DNA from: a virus | DNA length: 37,219 bases | Virus record (IMG/VR): IMGVR_UViG_3300028794_000190 | Coordinates: 1-37,219 of that record | Direction: 5' to 3' (one strand) | In this document: piece after piece, positions 2,925-35,679 of the stretch | Position numbering within the stretch: the first letter of the stretch is position 1 | Layout: every line of letters begins with the position of its first letter | Translations under genes and position numbers: made by a program | The notes under the pieces: generated by a model | Told to the model about the DNA's origin: nothing | Seen by the model: only the letters and a program-made list of their open reading frames with translations | Databases searched by the model: none

Positions 2925-3294
2925 GCGCGTCCGTTCGGGCGGCGAGGTCAACGCCCCGTGCAAAGCGAAGACGAAATGGAAGCACGTCGGGAATGTCGCC
3001 GTGATTCAACGGACTGACTGGCGCATCGAGGCATACGAACGCCCCGTGCATGAGGCATCTCGGCTCCATATTGGCGAAGGCTGTGTGACCCCCGATGGAC
3101 TGCTCGCGCAAATCATTGAAGACTACGGGCCGCACGTTTGGACCGACGACGAGGGAGTGCGCTGGACCGAGTACGGCTACGTCGTATGGTCGCCCAAGCA
3201 GGGAAGGGTGTTTTGCGCGGCGGGGAAACTTCTTAGTCAGACGGGGAAAGTCCGCCATCTGCAACTCGTTCGGCATGGAGTGGCCCATGCCTGA
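2917..3294 (+). CDS. Hypothetical early phage protein
   Basis: A 125-residue protein, not recognised. It starts at ATG 2917 inside the end of the upstream gene, with a GGGGG-type ribosome site a few bases before. An in-frame ATG at 2875 lies deep in the upstream gene and is less likely. The body has a lysine-rich N-terminus and a Trp/Tyr-rich middle (WTDDEGVRWTEYGYVVW) suggesting a small beta-rich fold. The four-base and longer overlaps with both neighbours indicate one early operon. Confidence 0.7.
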   Translation: MAKRVRSGGEVNAPCKAKTKWKHVGNVAVIQRTDWRIEAYERPVHEASRLHIGEGCVTPDGLLAQIIEDYGPHVWTDDEGVRWTEYGYVVWSPKQGRVFCAAGKLLSQTGKVRHLQLVRHGVAHA

Positions 3295-3496
3295 GGTAGA
3301 AATGACCCTCGAGCGAGCGCTCGCGGCCCTGGCGCGAGCCGCGCAGGCCGGCAACGTTGCTCCGCTTGAATATCTGAACGCGATCTGCCGCGGGGCAGCG
3401 TTCGACCCTGCCAAGGCCGCAGCCGCAGCGGCGGGACTCCGCGACAACAGCGACGAGGATGAGGTGCCCTTATGGCCACGATCACCCTCAAGATGA
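3287..3496 (+). CDS. Hypothetical small early protein
   Basis: A 69-residue Ala-rich helical protein (MPEVEMTLERALAALARAAQ...). It overlaps the end of the upstream gene by eight bases and the start of the next by 25. ATG 3287 has GGAG seven bases before it; ATG 3275 and ATG 3302 (after GAGG) are alternatives, and the last would give 64 residues. The family is not recognised. Its place in a tightly overlapping run supports it as real. Confidence 0.6.
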   Translation: MPEVEMTLERALAALARAAQAGNVAPLEYLNAICRGAAFDPAKAAAAAAGLRDNSDEDEVPLWPRSPSR

Positions 3497-3755
3497 TGCA
3501 GAAGACAGGCGCCGTGGCGCTTTCGCGAGCAGGCGGCGATGACGGCGGCGGCTACTCGACCCACGGCCAGACCCGCGCGCAGGAGTTCGATGACCACGTC
3601 GATGTCGTGCTTCTTCAGCCGCGCAACGGCTCGCACATCTACGTCGAAGGCCAGGACTACACGCCATCGAGAAGTACGCCACCGACATCCGCGTCGACCA
3701 GATGCAGATGGTGGGCTTCCACAACATGGACGACGACATTCCGTTCGAAAAGTGA
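3472..3755 (+). pseudogene. Early gene broken by a one-base frameshift
   Basis: The gene starts at ATG 3472 after a GAGGT ribosome site and reads sensibly to ...IYVEGQDY at 3660. In that frame the next codons turn into low-quality Ser/Thr/Arg text. The -1 frame from 3660 instead continues as HAIEKYATDIRVDQMQM... and ...NMDDDIPFEK, ending at TGA 3753-3755. Joined, the product is about 94 residues. A lost C in TAC-CAC near 3660 would explain it. There is no slippery heptamer at the junction, so a real mutation or a sequencing error is more likely than programmed shifting. The function is unknown. Confidence 0.7.
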
Positions 3756-9252: not shown

Positions 9253-9338
9253 TGCCGTGTAGCTCAGTGGTTTAGAGCAAGGGCCGCCCCTAAGAAGGCG
9301 GCCTAGGCGTCGCAGGTTCGATTCCTGCCACGGCACCA
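9253..9338 (+). tRNA. tRNA-like gene with an abnormal anticodon arm
   Basis: The parts are as follows. The acceptor is TGCCGTG (9253-9259) with CACGGCA (9329-9335), or six pairs plus discriminator A and encoded CCA at 9336-9338. TA at positions 8-9 is followed by a D-arm GCTC/GAGC (9262-9265, 9275-9278) whose loop contains GTGG. The T-arm is canonical, GCAGG-TTCGATT-CCTGC (9312-9328). Between D and T arms there are 33 bases instead of about 23. They hold a seven-pair stem GGCCGCC/GGCGGCC (9282-9288, 9297-9303) closing an eight-base loop CCTAAGAA. If T33 is the T at 9291 the anticodon would be AAG; reading the eight-base loop differently gives TAA. No ordinary identity can be assigned. Confidence 0.6.
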
Positions 9339-9381
9339 GATGTCTCCTCTATGGGTTCAACTTTCACGGTTGCCTGTAGTT

Positions 9382-9402
9382 GCCCGGTCCGCCGGGCTTT
9401 TT
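9382..9402 (+). terminator. Intrinsic terminator
   Basis: GCCCGG-TCCG-CCGGGC followed at once by TTTTT. It is a perfect six-pair stem, 44 bases after the tRNA-like gene, probably defining its 3' transcript end. Confidence 0.75.
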
Positions 9403-9420
9403 CATTTCAGCGGGTTTAGC

Positions 9421-9816
9421 TCAAACAGTGGAGCGTCGGGACGGAGGGAGCTTCATCCATTTCAAGGTCCTGGGGTCGATCTTGAGATTCTCGAGGCTCG
9501 TGTAAGCCACCGGGTTCCCACTCCTGCCCCAGGCATTTGGAATGGCCAGGGTCGCGTACTCGTTGAACGCAATGATGAAGCGGTCGCCTGATTCCAGAAT
9601 GTCGGAGACCTGCCCGATCATGAACGCTGTGCGGTGGTCGACCCCATCCATGTCCGCATCGCCGTTCACGTTCCGAACGCCAACAACATAGCGGCAGGCG
9701 GATGCGCGGTCTAGGTCCAGTTGCCAGTGTCCAATGCCGCCTTCGCTGAGCATGGTCTCCAGCGACTTGCCAGTAAATACTTTGATGACGCTTTCCACAA
9801 AAGTCCTATGGAGCAT
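9421..9816 (-). CDS. Inverted accessory (moron) gene, hypothetical
   Basis: A 131-residue protein opposite to all neighbours. The longest start is ATG 9816, but a GTG at 9798 with AGGA five bases before it is at least as good (125 residues). The body has a compact mixed pattern (HRTAFMIGQVSDILESGDRFIIAFNEYATLAIPNAWG, NPVAYTSLENLKIDP) seen in hypothetical proteins of phages and plasmids; no function is known. It has no signal peptide or membrane segment. The gene is framed by the 9-base direct repeat TGGAGCGTC (9429-9437 and 9816-9824), and the left copy lies in a tRNA-D-arm-like sequence. This suggests late insertion into the phage. Confidence 0.75.
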   Translation of the reverse strand: MLHRTFVESVIKVFTGKSLETMLSEGGIGHWQLDLDRASACRYVVGVRNVNGDADMDGVDHRTAFMIGQVSDILESGDRFIIAFNEYATLAIPNAWGRSGNPVAYTSLENLKIDPRTLKWMKLPPSRRSTV

Positions 9817-9914
9817 GGAGCGTCACGTTAGCGCTTGCGACGCCGGCTGCCATCCGCCATTTGGCGGAGAGCCTCGGCCTTTTCTCCTCGATCCCTCACC
9901 TTTGGGATCGTTAG

Positions 9915-9955
9915 CCCGCCATGAGCCGTAACCTCGTGGCGGGGCCTTTCTATTT
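9915..9955 (+). terminator. Strong hairpin with T-rich tail
   Basis: CCCGCCATGAG (9915-9925) and CTCGTGGCGGG (9933-9943) form eleven pairs with one G-T around CCGTAAC, followed by GCCTTTCTATTT. It is likely an intrinsic terminator or attenuator in the late leader. Two further short hairpins (TCCGCC/GGCGGA at 9853-9868 and GATCCC/GGGATC near 9891-9910) precede it. Confidence 0.65.
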
Positions 9956-10314: not shown

Positions 10315-10614
10315 ATGTGGCCCACCACCTCACGCCATGAACGAGGCTATGGCACCGCATGGGACAAGCTGAGGCTCGAGATCCTCAAGCGCGACAAGTA
10401 CCTCTGCAGGTGCGACGAGTGCAAGAAGACCTATCGCCTACGTGAGGCGACCCAGGTAGACCACCGCATCCCCAAGGCACAGGGTGGGACAGACGACCCG
10501 AGCAACCTGTGTGCGATCAATGAAGAGTGCCACAAGCGCAAGACCGACATCGAGAACGGACGCCGCATCAGGCCCCGAATCGGTGCGGATGGGTGGCCAG
10601 AGGGGAGGGGGTAG
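10315..10614 (+). CDS. HNH endonuclease beside the terminase
   Basis: A 99-residue HNH nuclease. After an RGYGTAWDKLR helix come a Cys pair (CRCDECKK), the core VDHRIPKAQGGTDDPSNL (catalytic His about residue 50) and the closing NEECHKRKT. In HK97-like phages a small HNH protein encoded just before TerS and TerL assists DNA cleavage by the terminase at packaging. AAGG lies a few bases before ATG 10315. The position and order HNH-TerS-TerL-portal match this known set. Confidence 0.93.
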   Translation: MWPTTSRHERGYGTAWDKLRLEILKRDKYLCRCDECKKTYRLREATQVDHRIPKAQGGTDDPSNLCAINEECHKRKTDIENGRRIRPRIGADGWPEGRG

Positions 10615-10705: not shown

Positions 10706-11215
10706 ATGGCAGGAAGAAGGCCCAAACCGACGCATCTGAAGGTGGTCTCTGGGAACCCGGGCAAGCGCGCGGTCAACAAGACGGAACCGAAGCCGAGGCG
10801 GGAAATTCCGTCCTGCCCGACCTACCTGTCAGATGTAGCGAAGGTGTCGTGGGGCCGCCTGAGTGTGTTGCTCGACCGCATGGGAGTGCTCACCGAGGCG
10901 GACGGACCCGCGCTAGAGCGGCTGTGCGATTGCTACGCGGAAATCCTGGAGTGCCGCGAGATCATCGCGCGCGATGGCCGGACGTACAGCAGCGTAACGA
11001 CCCGGACCACAAGCGAAGAGGGCGAAGAGACCACGGTCGAGGAAGTGAAGTCGCTGCTGAAGGCGAACCCTGCCGTCGCGATGCTGGGCGACGCTGACCG
11101 CCGGTTCAAGAGTTACCTGGTCGAGTTCGGCCTGACGCCGGCAGCTCGATCGAAGGTGCACACAAACAACGATGGCAACGACAAAAAAGATCCGCTCGGC
11201 GAGTTCTTCGGCTGA
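10706..11215 (+). CDS. terS: Terminase small subunit (P27 family)
   Basis: A 169-residue protein with the P27/Terminase_4 N-terminus (GRRPKPTHLKVVSGNPGKRAVN), which binds DNA at the start of packaging. It is followed by a helical region (SWGRLSVLLDRMGVLTEAD and ALERLCDCYAEILECREII) and the C-terminal ANPAVAMLGDADRRFKSYLVEFGLTPAARSKV that typically ends the family. Its last 44 bases overlap the start of TerL. It has the usual length for the family. Confidence 0.95.
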   Translation: MAGRRPKPTHLKVVSGNPGKRAVNKTEPKPRREIPSCPTYLSDVAKVSWGRLSVLLDRMGVLTEADGPALERLCDCYAEILECREIIARDGRTYSSVTTRTTSEEGEETTVEEVKSLLKANPAVAMLGDADRRFKSYLVEFGLTPAARSKVHTNNDGNDKKDPLGEFFG

Positions 11216-12893
11216 TCCGGTTACTGCCTACGCGCAGGAAGTCGTCGCCGGGAAGCGAATCGCCGGGCCGCATGTCCGCGATACGTGCGCGCGCCACCTC
11301 CGGGATCTGAAGGAGGGCAAGAAGCGCGGGCTGACTTGGAACGTCGAGGAGTCGAACAAGGCGATCCGGTTCTACGCCAAGGTGCTGAAGCTCAACGGCG
11401 GCGATTACGAGGGGGTTCCTTTCGAGTTGCTGCCCTGGCAGAAGTTTGTCGTCGGCAGCCTGTTCGGCTGGTTCGGGGCCGACACCTACCGCCGATTCCG
11501 AGTGGCCTACGTCGAGACCGCGAAGGGGTCCGGCAAGTCGCCGCTCGCCGCCGGGGTTGGGATGAAGGGCCTGGTCGCAGATGGCGAGGCTCGAGCGGAG
11601 GTGTACAGCGCCGCCACGAAAAAGGATCAGGCAATGATCCTGTTCCGTGACGCCGTTGCGATGGCCGACCAGTCGAAGGAGTTGGGCCAGCGCCTGACGA
11701 AGAGCGGGACCGGCGAGAAGTGCTGGAATCTCGCGTACCTGCAGACCGGATCCTTCTTTCGGCCGATTAGCAGCGACGATGGGCAGTCGGGGCCGCGGCC
11801 TCACATCGGGTTGATCGACGAACTGCACGAGCACAAGACCAACACGGTGGTCGAAATGCTGCGCGCGGGCACGAAGAGCCGGCGCCAGGCGCTGATCTTC
11901 ATGATCACGAACAGCGGGTCGGACAAGAAGGGGCCGTGCTGGGGGTATCACGAGTACGGGTCGCAGATTGCGAGCGGCGAACGGCAGGACGACGCGTTCT
12001 TCAGTTTCATCTGCGCGCTTGACGAGGACGACGATCCTTTCGAGGACGAGAAGTGCTGGCCCAAGGCGAATCCCAGCCTCCAGGACGCGAACCTTCCGGG
12101 CTACAAGTACATCCGGGAGCAGGTCACCGAGGCGAAGGGCATGCCTGGAAAAGAGGCCCTGGTCCGGCGGTTGAACTTCTGCCAGTGGACCGGCGCCGAG
12201 TCGCCATGGCTGAGTCATGAGATCTGGAAAGGCGCGCAGCGCGACTACGACTGGCAGGACTTGCGCGGCCGGCGCGCGGTGGCGGGGCTTGACCTGTCGA
12301 GCACGACCGACCTGACGGGCCTGGTGTTCTTCGTCGAGCCGGTCGAGGAGGGCGAGCCCTGGAAGATGGTGCCGTTCGGCTGGCTGCCCGAGATCGGGCT
12401 GCAGGAAAAGAACGACACAGACGGCGTGCCCTACGTTCAGTGGAAGGCCGAAGGGTTCCTGGACACGACGCCGGGCCGAGCGATCAGCAAGCGGACGATT
12501 CTGCAGAAGCTGAGCGGCATGTGCGACTTCTTCGAGGTGATCGAGGTCGCATACGACCGGTGGCGCATCGAGGATCTGACGTCGCTGGCGAACGATGAGG
12601 GCATCACGCTCCCGCTGATGCGCCCGTTCGGGCAGGGTTTCAAGGACATGAGCCCAGCGGTCGAGAACTTTGAGCGGATGCTGCTGAATGGAGAGTTGGT
12701 GCACCCGGGCCACAAGCTGCTGACCATGTGCGCCGGCAATGCGGTGATCGAACAGGACGGCGCGGAGAACCGCAAGCTGTCAAAAGAAAAAGCGACCGGC
12801 CGGATTGACCTGATGGTCGCCGCCGTCATGGCGGGCGGCATTGTTGCCACCTTGCCCGAACCAACCGAAGCACCCTCAATCCGATGGCTCTGA
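11172..12893 (+). CDS. terL: Terminase large subunit
   Basis: A 573-residue packaging motor and nuclease of the Terminase_1/YmfN type. It has the N-terminal GPHVRDTCARHLRDLKEG segment, Walker A ETAKGSGKS (about residues 115-123) and Walker B-like IGLIDELHEH (about 212-221). The C-terminal RNase-H-like nuclease begins at AVAGLDLSSTTDLTGLV, with further acidic residues in IEVAYDRWRIED. It works with TerS and the HNH protein and docks on the portal. The start at ATG 11172 lies within the terS end, and the stop overlaps the portal start. The length is normal for the family. Confidence 0.96.
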   Translation: MATTKKIRSASSSADPVTAYAQEVVAGKRIAGPHVRDTCARHLRDLKEGKKRGLTWNVEESNKAIRFYAKVLKLNGGDYEGVPFELLPWQKFVVGSLFGWFGADTYRRFRVAYVETAKGSGKSPLAAGVGMKGLVADGEARAEVYSAATKKDQAMILFRDAVAMADQSKELGQRLTKSGTGEKCWNLAYLQTGSFFRPISSDDGQSGPRPHIGLIDELHEHKTNTVVEMLRAGTKSRRQALIFMITNSGSDKKGPCWGYHEYGSQIASGERQDDAFFSFICALDEDDDPFEDEKCWPKANPSLQDANLPGYKYIREQVTEAKGMPGKEALVRRLNFCQWTGAESPWLSHEIWKGAQRDYDWQDLRGRRAVAGLDLSSTTDLTGLVFFVEPVEEGEPWKMVPFGWLPEIGLQEKNDTDGVPYVQWKAEGFLDTTPGRAISKRTILQKLSGMCDFFEVIEVAYDRWRIEDLTSLANDEGITLPLMRPFGQGFKDMSPAVENFERMLLNGELVHPGHKLLTMCAGNAVIEQDGAENRKLSKEKATGRIDLMVAAVMAGGIVATLPEPTEAPSIRWL

Positions 12894-29752: not shown

Positions 29753-31770
29753 CATCACCGACTCTCACGCAGATCACCGCGGCCGCCGGCCAGGACGTTC
29801 CGATCAATGCGAACTTCCAGACGGTAAGCCCTGGGGCACTCTTCGCGCGCCGATACGGCTCCGGCATCTCCGGCCTGGTGCTGGGCTACTACGGCGGCAC
29901 GTTCGAAGGCAACGACATCGCAGACGGCACGACGACCTTGGCGGCGAGCCAAGTCACGATTTACGTTGTTGCGCTGAAGTCCACGGGTGTCGTTTCGTCG
30001 AGCACGTCGAACAGCAATTGGAACGACACGACCAACTACTTTCGAATCGGTATCGCTACGACAGGCCCGGCAACGATCACCGCGCTACTCGACAAGCGGC
30101 AAGCCTATTCGGCGCAGGCCGGCTCGTCTTTCTCTGGCGGCACATTGGTCAGTGCCTTGAACGAGGCGCCAACTGTGACGCTGGCGTCTGCCGCCACGGT
30201 CAACATTGGCGCGGCGGCGGCGAACACCATCAATGTGACAGGCACGACAACGATCACAGCATTCGACACGATCGCTGCAAGTGCTATGCGGCGCGTTGTC
30301 TTCGCCGGCATCCTCACGCTGACGCACAATGGAACTTCGCTGATCCTTCCTACCGCCGCGAACATCACCACGGCAGCGGGCGACGTTGCAGAGTTCGTCT
30401 CGCTCGGCTCTGGAAACTGGCGTTGTGTGAACTACATGCGTGCCAGTGGGAACGCAGTCGCCGGCTCGTCGTTCACTGGCGGTACGCTGACAAGCGCGCT
30501 CAATGAAGCGCCGGCTGTCGCGCTCGCATCGGCCGCCACGGTCAACATCGGGGCCGCAGCAGCGAACACAGTCACCGTCAGCGGCACCACCACAATCACC
30601 GCGTTCGATACGATCGCAGCCAGCGCGATCCGCCGGGTTCGTTTCCTGGGCATCCTCGCGCTGACGCACAACGCGACATCTCTGATCCTGCCAGGATCGG
30701 CGAACATCACGACGGCGGCGGGTGACGTCGCCACCATGGAGTCGCTCGGTTCGGGCAACTGGCGGTGCATCAACTATTCGAAGGCAGACGGCACTTCCGT
30801 GGTGGGCGCTGGCCTTTCGAATTGGACGGAGGCTGTCAACACCTCCACTCCGAACGCCACGGTTCCAGTTGTCAGCTTCAAAGCCTCCAACGCAGCAACC
30901 AATGTCGACATAGTCCTTGGCGCCAAAGGGAACGGCGCAACCGCCACGCAGGTCGCCGACAACACCACGAGCGGCGGCAACAAGCGCGGCGGCTATGCAT
31001 TCGACTGGCAGAGCATTCGCTCCTCGACGGGTCAAGTTGCGACCGGCTCGTATTCTGTCCTGCTCGGTACTAACAACTGCACGGCCAACGGCACACGCGC
31101 CGGCATCTACAACTCGGACGGATCGACCTGTGCTGGCACCAGTTCGGCGGTAGTCGCATCGGACGGTTCTACGTGCGCAGGTAACAACAGCGTTGTAGCA
31201 GGTGGAACGTCGAGCACTTCGGCTGGCGCGAACAACGCAACCCTAGGCGGACAGAACCACGCCAATAGCGGCACCTTCTCGGGGATTCTTGGTGGAGATG
31301 GTGCGTCGAGTCGAGGCCTTCGATCTGTCTTGGCCTTCGCCTCTGGCTCGATCTCCAACGCAGGCGATCAGCAGCGCATGGAATTCATCCAGCGCGTTGC
31401 CACAAGTAACGCGACGCCGACCGCAATGGCTGCGACTGGCGGCGTCCCGGCGGCGACGACTGCGATGGTCCTGCAGGCGAACTCCTCGGTGAAGTACCGC
31501 GCGGAAATCGTCGCCCGGGACGGCTCCACAGGCGACACGAAGGGCTGGATCGTCACCGGGACGATCAAGCGCCGCGCCTCGGCCGCGCTCACATCGCTTG
31601 TGGGAACGCCAACCGTGACCGTCGATGGCGCGGATGCTGCCGCAGCCGCATGGACTGTTGCTGCCGTCGCCAACACCACGCTGGGCAGTCTCGAGCTTCA
31701 AGTGACAGGCGCCGCCGCCACGGTGATTCGCTGGACCGCCAGCGTCTGGCTCGTCGAGAACGCGGGCTGA
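29749..31770 (+). CDS. Tail fibre with tandem repeats and collagen/YadA-like head
   Basis: A 673-residue fibre. Residues 1-124 form an attachment domain. Residues 125-238 and 239-352 are two copies of a 114-residue unit (each with SALNEAP, TVNIGAAAANT, TTTITAFDTIAAS and SLGSGNWRC). Residues about 420-520 contain short repeats (GTNNCTANGTRAGIYNSDGSTCAGTSS...) like the trimeric beta-roll of YadA-type adhesin heads. The C-terminus (about 530-673) is a beta-rich domain likely to bind the host receptor. The start overlaps the hub stop. No separate fibre assembly gene was seen. Confidence 0.85.
   Translation: MTSPTLTQITAAAGQDVPINANFQTVSPGALFARRYGSGISGLVLGYYGGTFEGNDIADGTTTLAASQVTIYVVALKSTGVVSSSTSNSNWNDTTNYFRIGIATTGPATITALLDKRQAYSAQAGSSFSGGTLVSALNEAPTVTLASAATVNIGAAAANTINVTGTTTITAFDTIAASAMRRVVFAGILTLTHNGTSLILPTAANITTAAGDVAEFVSLGSGNWRCVNYMRASGNAVAGSSFTGGTLTSALNEAPAVALASAATVNIGAAAANTVTVSGTTTITAFDTIAASAIRRVRFLGILALTHNATSLILPGSANITTAAGDVATMESLGSGNWRCINYSKADGTSVVGAGLSNWTEAVNTSTPNATVPVVSFKASNAATNVDIVLGAKGNGATATQVADNTTSGGNKRGGYAFDWQSIRSSTGQVATGSYSVLLGTNNCTANGTRAGIYNSDGSTCAGTSSAVVASDGSTCAGNNSVVAGGTSSTSAGANNATLGGQNHANSGTFSGILGGDGASSRGLRSVLAFASGSISNAGDQQRMEFIQRVATSNATPTAMAATGGVPAATTAMVLQANSSVKYRAEIVARDGSTGDTKGWIVTGTIKRRASAALTSLVGTPTVTVDGADAAAAAWTVAAVANTTLGSLELQVTGAAATVIRWTASVWLVENAG
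30121..30804 (+). repeat. Tandem 342-base duplication in the fibre gene
   Basis: Unit 1 at 30121-30462 and unit 2 at 30463-30804 both begin GGCTCGTCNTTC and encode the same 114-residue fold with scattered changes. The third unit is replaced by a different domain, so the fibre could change length by recombination between the copies. Confidence 0.8.
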
Positions 31771-34791: not shown

Positions 34792-35628
34792 CTAGGCAGC
34801 TCGCGGGCGACGAGGCGGCATGAGGCGCGCCTTGTTCGCCGGCGGCGTATTTCCGATCATCAGCAACTGATCCAGCATCGGCAAGGCAAGGGGATCGCGT
34901 TCGCTGAAGTAGCCAGCCGCCCGCTCAGGCATCCAAACCTGGTTGATGTAGTTGCGAAACTCAACCAGAAATTCGATGGGGTAAAGCTTCGCCTCGACAC
35001 TCGCGCGTCCTTCGAACTCGTGGGTGTACGTCGGCAATGCGTCAGTATCGATTCCGAGCTGATCGCGAAGGAACTTGCAAAACATTCGGCCCTGGGAGAT
35101 GTCGGGCATCATCGATTCAGGCAACGTGTACCCCCGAACCTCCAACGGCGCGATGAGGGTATTCGTCATCTCCTGCAGAATCGAAAAGTGGGTGGGCGGA
35201 ATTTTGCCGATGTTGAGCATGTGCCGGCGCAGGTGATACGGAAGCGTGATCTCCCGCGGCTGTTGCTTGTTCCCCGACATCCAGTCGTAGATCCACTCGG
35301 ATACTTGCACCGCGAAATCCGCGGACAACCACTGCGCCAGATGAATCGCGACCTTTGGGTGGACCCAGGTGCTATGCACACCTTCAGAAGACGTAACCTG
35401 TTGATTTAAAAGCAGAACGCTAATCTGAGTTTTGGCAGAGAGGGCGCGCAAGAAGTGCCCCGTCGTCTCGTTTCTCAGGTAGTTGTACCAACGCTTTCCA
35501 GCTGCGTTGCAGAGATCGGTAGCGTTGATGTAGCCGTCCTCTGTGCGCTGCTGGATGATCGAATTCGCAACTTTGTGCGAGATCAAGTTGAGGGAGGACT
35601 GATGGGTCGGGGGGAGGGGAGCGGGCAT
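34792..35628 (-). CDS. KilA-N domain protein, possibly BstA-like
   Basis: A 278-residue protein. The start ATG 35628 has AAGGA five bases before it and is preferred over GTG 35649. The KilA-N DNA-binding domain spans about residues 10-110 (QRTEDGYINATDLCNAAGKRW, YNYLRNETTGHFLRAL, STWVHPKVAIHLAQWLSADFAVQVSEWIYDWM). The second half (ITLPYHLRRHMLNIGKIPPTHFSILQEM, then GRMFCKFLRDQLGI, YTHEFEGR and YFSERDPLALPML) is a C-terminal domain of unknown role. Prophage BstA abortive-infection proteins share an N-terminal KilA-N domain and similar size. The match to BstA is from memory of architecture, not an alignment, so an ordinary KilA-N regulator remains possible. Confidence 0.7.
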   Translation of the reverse strand: MPAPLPPTHQSSLNLISHKVANSIIQQRTEDGYINATDLCNAAGKRWYNYLRNETTGHFLRALSAKTQISVLLLNQQVTSSEGVHSTWVHPKVAIHLAQWLSADFAVQVSEWIYDWMSGNKQQPREITLPYHLRRHMLNIGKIPPTHFSILQEMTNTLIAPLEVRGYTLPESMMPDISQGRMFCKFLRDQLGIDTDALPTYTHEFEGRASVEAKLYPIEFLVEFRNYINQVWMPERAAGYFSERDPLALPMLDQLLMIGNTPPANKARLMPPRRPRAA

Positions 35629-35679
35629 ATATTCCTTTTTGGATGCCACGCGGCAGGGATGTCTGTTACGAATCTGCGC

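Follow-up and report, generated by a model that had tools for sequence, protein, structure and literature searches.

A tRNA-like gene with an extended hairpin at the anticodon-arm position in a temperate phage: a possible non-decoding tRNA mimic

Upstream of its terminase genes a temperate phage carries a gene that has the body of a tRNA and, at the position of the anticodon arm, a hairpin of a different build. This raises the question whether the gene encodes a tRNA with unusual decoding properties, the remnant of a tRNA, or an RNA that resembles a tRNA without decoding. The window, meaning the whole stretch of 37,219 nucleotides analyzed here, is the virus record of this phage, which encodes an integrase and whose terminase belongs to the TerL_ATPase/TerL_nuclease family. 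The coordinates of the element and of its surroundings are collected in Table 1.

The acceptor, D and T stems of the element are perfect, and the usual tRNA tertiary-contact bases are present in its body according to the sequence and the Rfam alignment. The preliminary description had proposed a comparison with covariance models, and Rfam family RF00005 (tRNA) scores the element with 46.8 bits (E 4.4e-7 for the window). The D and T arms are separated by 33 nucleotides compared to approximately 23 in a normal tRNA. Within this spacer, GGGCCGCC and GGCGGCCT form a helix of eight base pairs, seven of them Watson-Crick pairs and one a G-U pair, that is closed by the eight-base loop CCUAAGAA. Taken alone, the helix is modestly better than those of dinucleotide shuffles of the 33-nucleotide spacer (p = 0.036). 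As the CCA follows directly after the acceptor strand, the element lacks either a discriminator base or one pair of its acceptor stem. The preliminary description had already listed the three arms with an encoded CCA, a seven-pair anticodon arm with an eight-base loop, the 33-base spacing and the shortage of one base or one pair at the acceptor, and sequence and fold agree with it on each of these points, the seven pairs being the Watson-Crick ones. ARAGORN calls the element a tRNA-Pro(GGG) with the anticodon at 9281-9283. This isotype is not credible because the proposed anticodon falls inside the extended helix.

Table 1. Position of the tRNA-like gene, its parts and neighboring features in the window.
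Feature	Position	Strand	Evidence
tRNA-like gene, whole element including encoded CCA	9253..9338	+	Rfam RF00005 46.8 bits, E 4.4e-7; fold
Acceptor stem, 5' strand TGCCGTG	9253..9259	+	pairs with CACGGCA 9329-9335
D arm GCTC-AGTGGTTTA-GAGC	9262..9278	+	sequence; Rfam alignment
Spacer between D arm and T arm, 33 nt	9279..9311	+	
Extended hairpin replacing the anticodon arm: GGGCCGCC 9281-9288, loop CCTAAGAA 9289-9296, GGCGGCCT 9297-9304	9281..9304	+	MFE structure; shuffle p = 0.036
T arm GCAGG-TTCGATT-CCTGC	9312..9328	+	sequence; Rfam alignment
Acceptor 3' strand CACGGCA (9329-9335), then CCA (9336-9338), no discriminator base between	9329..9338	+	sequence
Intrinsic terminator downstream of the element	9382..9403	+	terminator scan
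HNH endonuclease gene, late leader, downstream of the element	10315..10614	+	Pfam PF01844
Terminase small and large subunit genes, defining the late-leader slot	10706..12893	+	Pfam PF05119, PF03354, PF20441

With a canonical tRNA the element shares the acceptor, D and T arms with their canonical contact bases, as reflected by its RF00005 score. It has neither a five-base-pair anticodon stem with a seven-base loop and U33 nor a seven-base-pair acceptor stem with a discriminator base ahead of the CCA, and a canonical decoding tRNA is excluded by the anticodon arm and the absent discriminator base. A selenocysteine tRNA would have an eight-base-pair acceptor and a six-base-pair D stem, whereas the element has six to seven and four base pairs, respectively. 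A class II tRNA combines a long variable arm with a normal anticodon arm, whereas the additional bases of the element sit in the anticodon arm itself. The loop CCUAAGAA resembles the type I-F crRNA handle, with only seven matching bases and without the repeat hairpin. What the element fits is the set of odd phage elements defined in this study, which possess intact acceptor, D and T arms, a spacer longer than that of class I tRNAs and a hairpin that lacks the arrangement of five pairs and seven loop bases.

The Y RNA YrlA (Rfam RF02553) is comparable in that it is non-decoding, contains the acceptor, D and T arms of a tRNA and has an extended helix at the anticodon position. It differs by its circular permutation, with the T arm ahead of the D arm and an outer helix that closes the whole, by a loop-capped acceptor and by a Ro/Rsr-binding stem. 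The window element keeps the normal tRNA order and open acceptor ends and gives no RF02553 match at E values up to 1, and was thus not classified as YrlA. Among tRNA mimics that do not decode, YrlA is the best known. The tRNA-like domain of this permuted mimic receives modifications from DusA and TruB and is bound to PNPase (PMC8394870). As a possible role of this domain, competitive inhibition of an anticodon nuclease was suggested in "An RNA Repair Operon Regulated by Damaged tRNAs" (PMC7790460). Another comparison is with phage tRNAs whose changed anticodon loops let them escape tRNA-cleaving defences (van den Berg et al. 2023, PMC10264068; Azam et al. 2024, PMC11555353). Here, too, phages carry tRNA genes in which the anticodon region is altered, and a role against defences that target tRNAs is proposed or shown for them. 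They are proposed or shown to be decoding replacements, whereas the window element has no usable anticodon arm.

YrlA-type RNAs are also carried by phages in divergent copies, since permuted elements of the Xanthomonas phage 10KY502B (L037) match RF02553 at 1e-11. This phage contains three tandem permuted tRNA-like units that are not annotated as such (2981-3089, 3219-3324 and 3437-3541; 55.9, 46.7 and 25.0 bits against RF02553, below the gathering score). The first unit has an 80%-identical copy in phage Olaya (L468) and in five other Xanthomonas phages. Further circularly permuted tRNA-like units occur in the viral contigs L410 (near 5735, minus strand), L457 (4431 and 4710), L273, L277, L371, L409 and L465, and their acceptor stems are capped by a short linker such as ATACGA, TTCG or TAAG. 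They are probably divergent YrlA-type RNAs as well; the comparison with Rfam covered L037 only.

The element precedes the gene of the large terminase subunit by approximately 1.9 kb, with the HNH and small terminase genes in between. It had been described as framed by terminators. This holds for the downstream side, where a clear terminator is present (Table 1), but the upstream side offers only the T-run GGCTTTTTCGTTTC with a weak stem. Upstream sequence of at least 3 kb was available for 80 terminase relatives. A tRNA or tRNA-like gene was scored 0.3-5 kb upstream in five of these loci, one of them (L089) probably a chance match, and the slot is usually empty. The loci L039 and L047 contain a canonical tRNA-Gly(UCC) in the same leader, and L052 contains another odd tRNA-like gene right after the same kind of T-run (GGCTTTTTCGTTTC), for which the tRNA-Sec call of ARAGORN was not accepted. 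Other phages with this terminase family (L326, L352) possess an initiator-like tRNA, and in Bordetella phage PHB09, where the genes follow the same order, it is a tRNA-Met. We therefore regard the slot as a place in which tRNA genes are optional cargo and the window element as an unusual occupant. A comparison with related prophages, as proposed in the preliminary description, thus yields tRNAs or an odd tRNA-like gene in the same slot, but none with the arm of the element. In a pattern search for loop-conserved homologues no homologue of this arm was found; the sole match (L315) has no T arm and was rejected as a chance match. The extended stem of the element has no covariation support because no homologue of the exact arm was found.

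Several additional observations were made in these leaders and in the window. The initiator-like tRNAs (L326:1610-1683 and L352:2264-2337) lie in late leaders and have a C1-A72 mismatch and CAT in the anticodon loop; the former has a GGG/CCC anticodon stem, the latter A54 in the T loop. Weak matches to RF02278 (Betaproteobacteria toxic small RNA) were obtained at 9341-9405, directly 3' of the tRNA-like gene, and at 9881-9952 (E 0.89 and 0.13, below gathering). Both contain TCTCCTC and end in a terminator-like hairpin. On the opposite strand within the late leader, 9421-9816 (minus strand) encodes a 131-residue protein of unknown function (phrog_37247, E 1.3e-23), and the corresponding position in PHB09 is occupied by a BrnT toxin gene pair. 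A BstA-like protein is encoded at 34792-35649 on the minus strand (PHROG 6287, E 2.8e-54; PADLOC BstA, E 3.2e-17), BstA being a family of abortive-infection replication inhibitors of prophages.

Viral contigs were searched with a pattern in which only the D arm and the T loop were fixed and the spacer was longer than normal, and matches with normal anticodon arms were removed. Among the matches listed there were 210 distinct odd elements. The acceptor stem was outside the search pattern and is hence independent of the selection. It is completely paired (7/7) in 156 of the 210 odd elements listed and paired at six or more positions in 194, and C48 is present in 189; if strands are swapped between odd elements, only 0.7% of the acceptors are fully paired. 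Since acceptors that were not selected for stay paired and C48 is kept, these sequences indicate that the body of the odd elements as a class is maintained and not decaying. A helix closing the arm near 27:43 is present in 113 of the 162 non-redundant elements among the matches listed, compared to 54 +/- 7 in shuffles. No arm sequence or payload motif shared across these 162 exceeded the shuffles, and tetraloops are the most frequent terminal loops. As the arm is closed by a helix but has no common motif, the body is the common part of the set. A recurrent downstream gene partner was not found for the odd elements, whose neighbors are HNH, terminase, exonuclease and other genes.

The patterns for odd elements gave no match in bacteria (399 and 60 Pseudomonadota genomes), while a canonical-length version used as a control gave ten matches in 16 Pseudomonadota genomes. 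For one T-stem sequence in viral contigs, a complete count of 35 odd-length elements faces at least 120 of canonical length, so that odd elements form a minority without being rare. Two recurring forms were seen. Three different tRNA-like genes (L368, L391, L425) share the insertion CATTTGCG at the 5' side of their anticodon loops, which resembles a tiny intron or a common insert, and L024, L215, L285 and similar ones carry a recurring five-base-pair stem with the nine-base loop (A/C)GTAATGNN instead of the anticodon loop.

A homologous element is present in the Streptomyces phages phiC31, Vash, Euratis, Lilbooboo, Samora, Heather, Sebastisaurus and RemusLoopin. The phiC31 copy (31424-31509) is unannotated and lies between gp13 and gp14. 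In the alignment of this family 99.5% of the cells pair, compared to 91.2% in shuffles. Pairs that have changed on both sides are present in the acceptor and T helices, in the helix at the anticodon position and in the inner hairpin, which is a direct sign of selection in this family. The D stem is invariant, and the inner hairpin alternates between GNRA and UUCG loops. In phiBT1 the phiC31 body is kept with an unrelated, shorter hairpin as arm. On account of the covariation, the switching of the loop and the phiBT1 body with its other arm, the alignment indicates that the body is conserved in the phiC31 family and that the arm is a real structure which is not an anticodon arm. The window element resembles this family in its tRNA body, its structured non-anticodon arm and its missing or wrong annotation. 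It differs in that the phiC31 family has another arm, whose inner hairpin ends in a GNRA or UUCG loop, and does not encode the CCA, and in that covariation is shown for the phiC31 family but not for the window element.

With a body that is kept and an arm that varies, the simplest common reading would be a tRNA mimic which is unable to decode. We tentatively propose that the window element is such a phage-borne mimic, with somewhat less than even confidence. Its transcript would fold as a tRNA, would be trimmed by tRNA-processing enzymes and would be modified in its D and T loops. Unable to read a codon, the RNA could occupy host proteins that recognize the tRNA body, and perhaps compete for host enzymes that act on tRNAs, a role that has also been proposed for YrlA. 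The most plausible targets would be tRNA-cleaving or tRNA-modifying enzymes of defence or toxin systems, although their nature is a guess; for such enzymes the mimic would represent a ligand without a cleavable anticodon loop. The usually empty slot and the lack of a homologue of the exact arm are points against this proposal, and the window copy, in which the discriminator base is missing, may already be damaged. A mimic or decoy had been among the initial suggestions; it is the best remaining reading, with support from the class of elements, and for the window element itself it stays a proposal.

The element could also be a decaying tRNA of the slot that was inactivated when its anticodon arm took up insertions and its 3' end lost one base, and that is now functionless. 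The canonical tRNA-Gly(UCC) in the same leader of two relatives and the modest significance of the helix agree with this. For the window copy such a decay is almost as likely as a mimic because there is no discriminator base and no homologue with the same arm, and we consider it a realistic possibility, if below an even chance. Against it, the change is confined to the arm, the acceptor, D and T arms all being perfect; the altered arm is itself a stable perfect helix; and the elements of this class generally retain their bodies and covary where this can be assessed. The suggestion of frameshift or nonstandard decoding has fared worse. A working tRNA with an eight-base loop could draw on the loop CCUAAGAA, where a U is followed by AAG, readable as an anticodon for Leu codons. 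Yet by established tRNA geometry a stem of eight base pairs would hold the loop at too great a distance from the decoding site, a C occupies the position where U33 is usual, and the discriminator base is absent. On these grounds we rejected a decoding tRNA or frameshift suppressor and consider it very improbable; the loops of the relatives are moreover unrelated and mostly tetraloops.

Replacing the anticodon arm of a tRNA body by another RNA is the principle of the engineered tRNA scaffold for recombinant RNA. It is the same replacement as in the window element, the one being engineered and the other natural. A natural scaffold, in which the body merely folds and protects a regulatory or protein-binding payload hairpin, would be in agreement with the phiC31 family, where in most members the inner hairpin is flanked by conserved unpaired AACCCGGGA and (T/C)GCA, which suggest a specific payload there. 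But phiBT1 has swapped the payload on the same body and no payload motif is common across phages, so that we regard a scaffold as improbable. We give a little less credit to the idea that the tRNA fold only serves to direct the cleavage of the late leader transcript by RNase P and 3' enzymes. While the position between T-run and terminator, as in L052, would suit such a punctuation, an ordinary tRNA would do equally, many odd elements such as that of phiC31 lie outside late leaders, and the slot is without a tRNA in most terminase relatives.

Returning to the tRNA mimic, a more general proposal can be made, which we regard as doubtful at present: phages would carry a widespread and unrecognised class of non-permuted tRNA bodies, the window element included, with exchangeable hairpins for the anticodon arm, which inhibit host enzymes that recognize the tRNA body. 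None of the openly licensed papers searched describes a class of phage tRNA-like RNAs that are not permuted, which is weak evidence of novelty, and the novelty of the odd phage set is provisional. Such genes either receive a false isotype from annotation tools, namely tRNA-Pro(GGG) here, "tRNA-Gly" in Lilbooboo and "tRNA-OTHER" in AbbeyMikolon, or escape them, as in phiC31 and Vash. If they are indeed tRNA mimics, a part of the tRNA repertoire of phages would be unrelated to decoding. The old question why phages carry tRNAs could then be put to a direct test, for which phiC31 and phiBT1 would serve as laboratory models.
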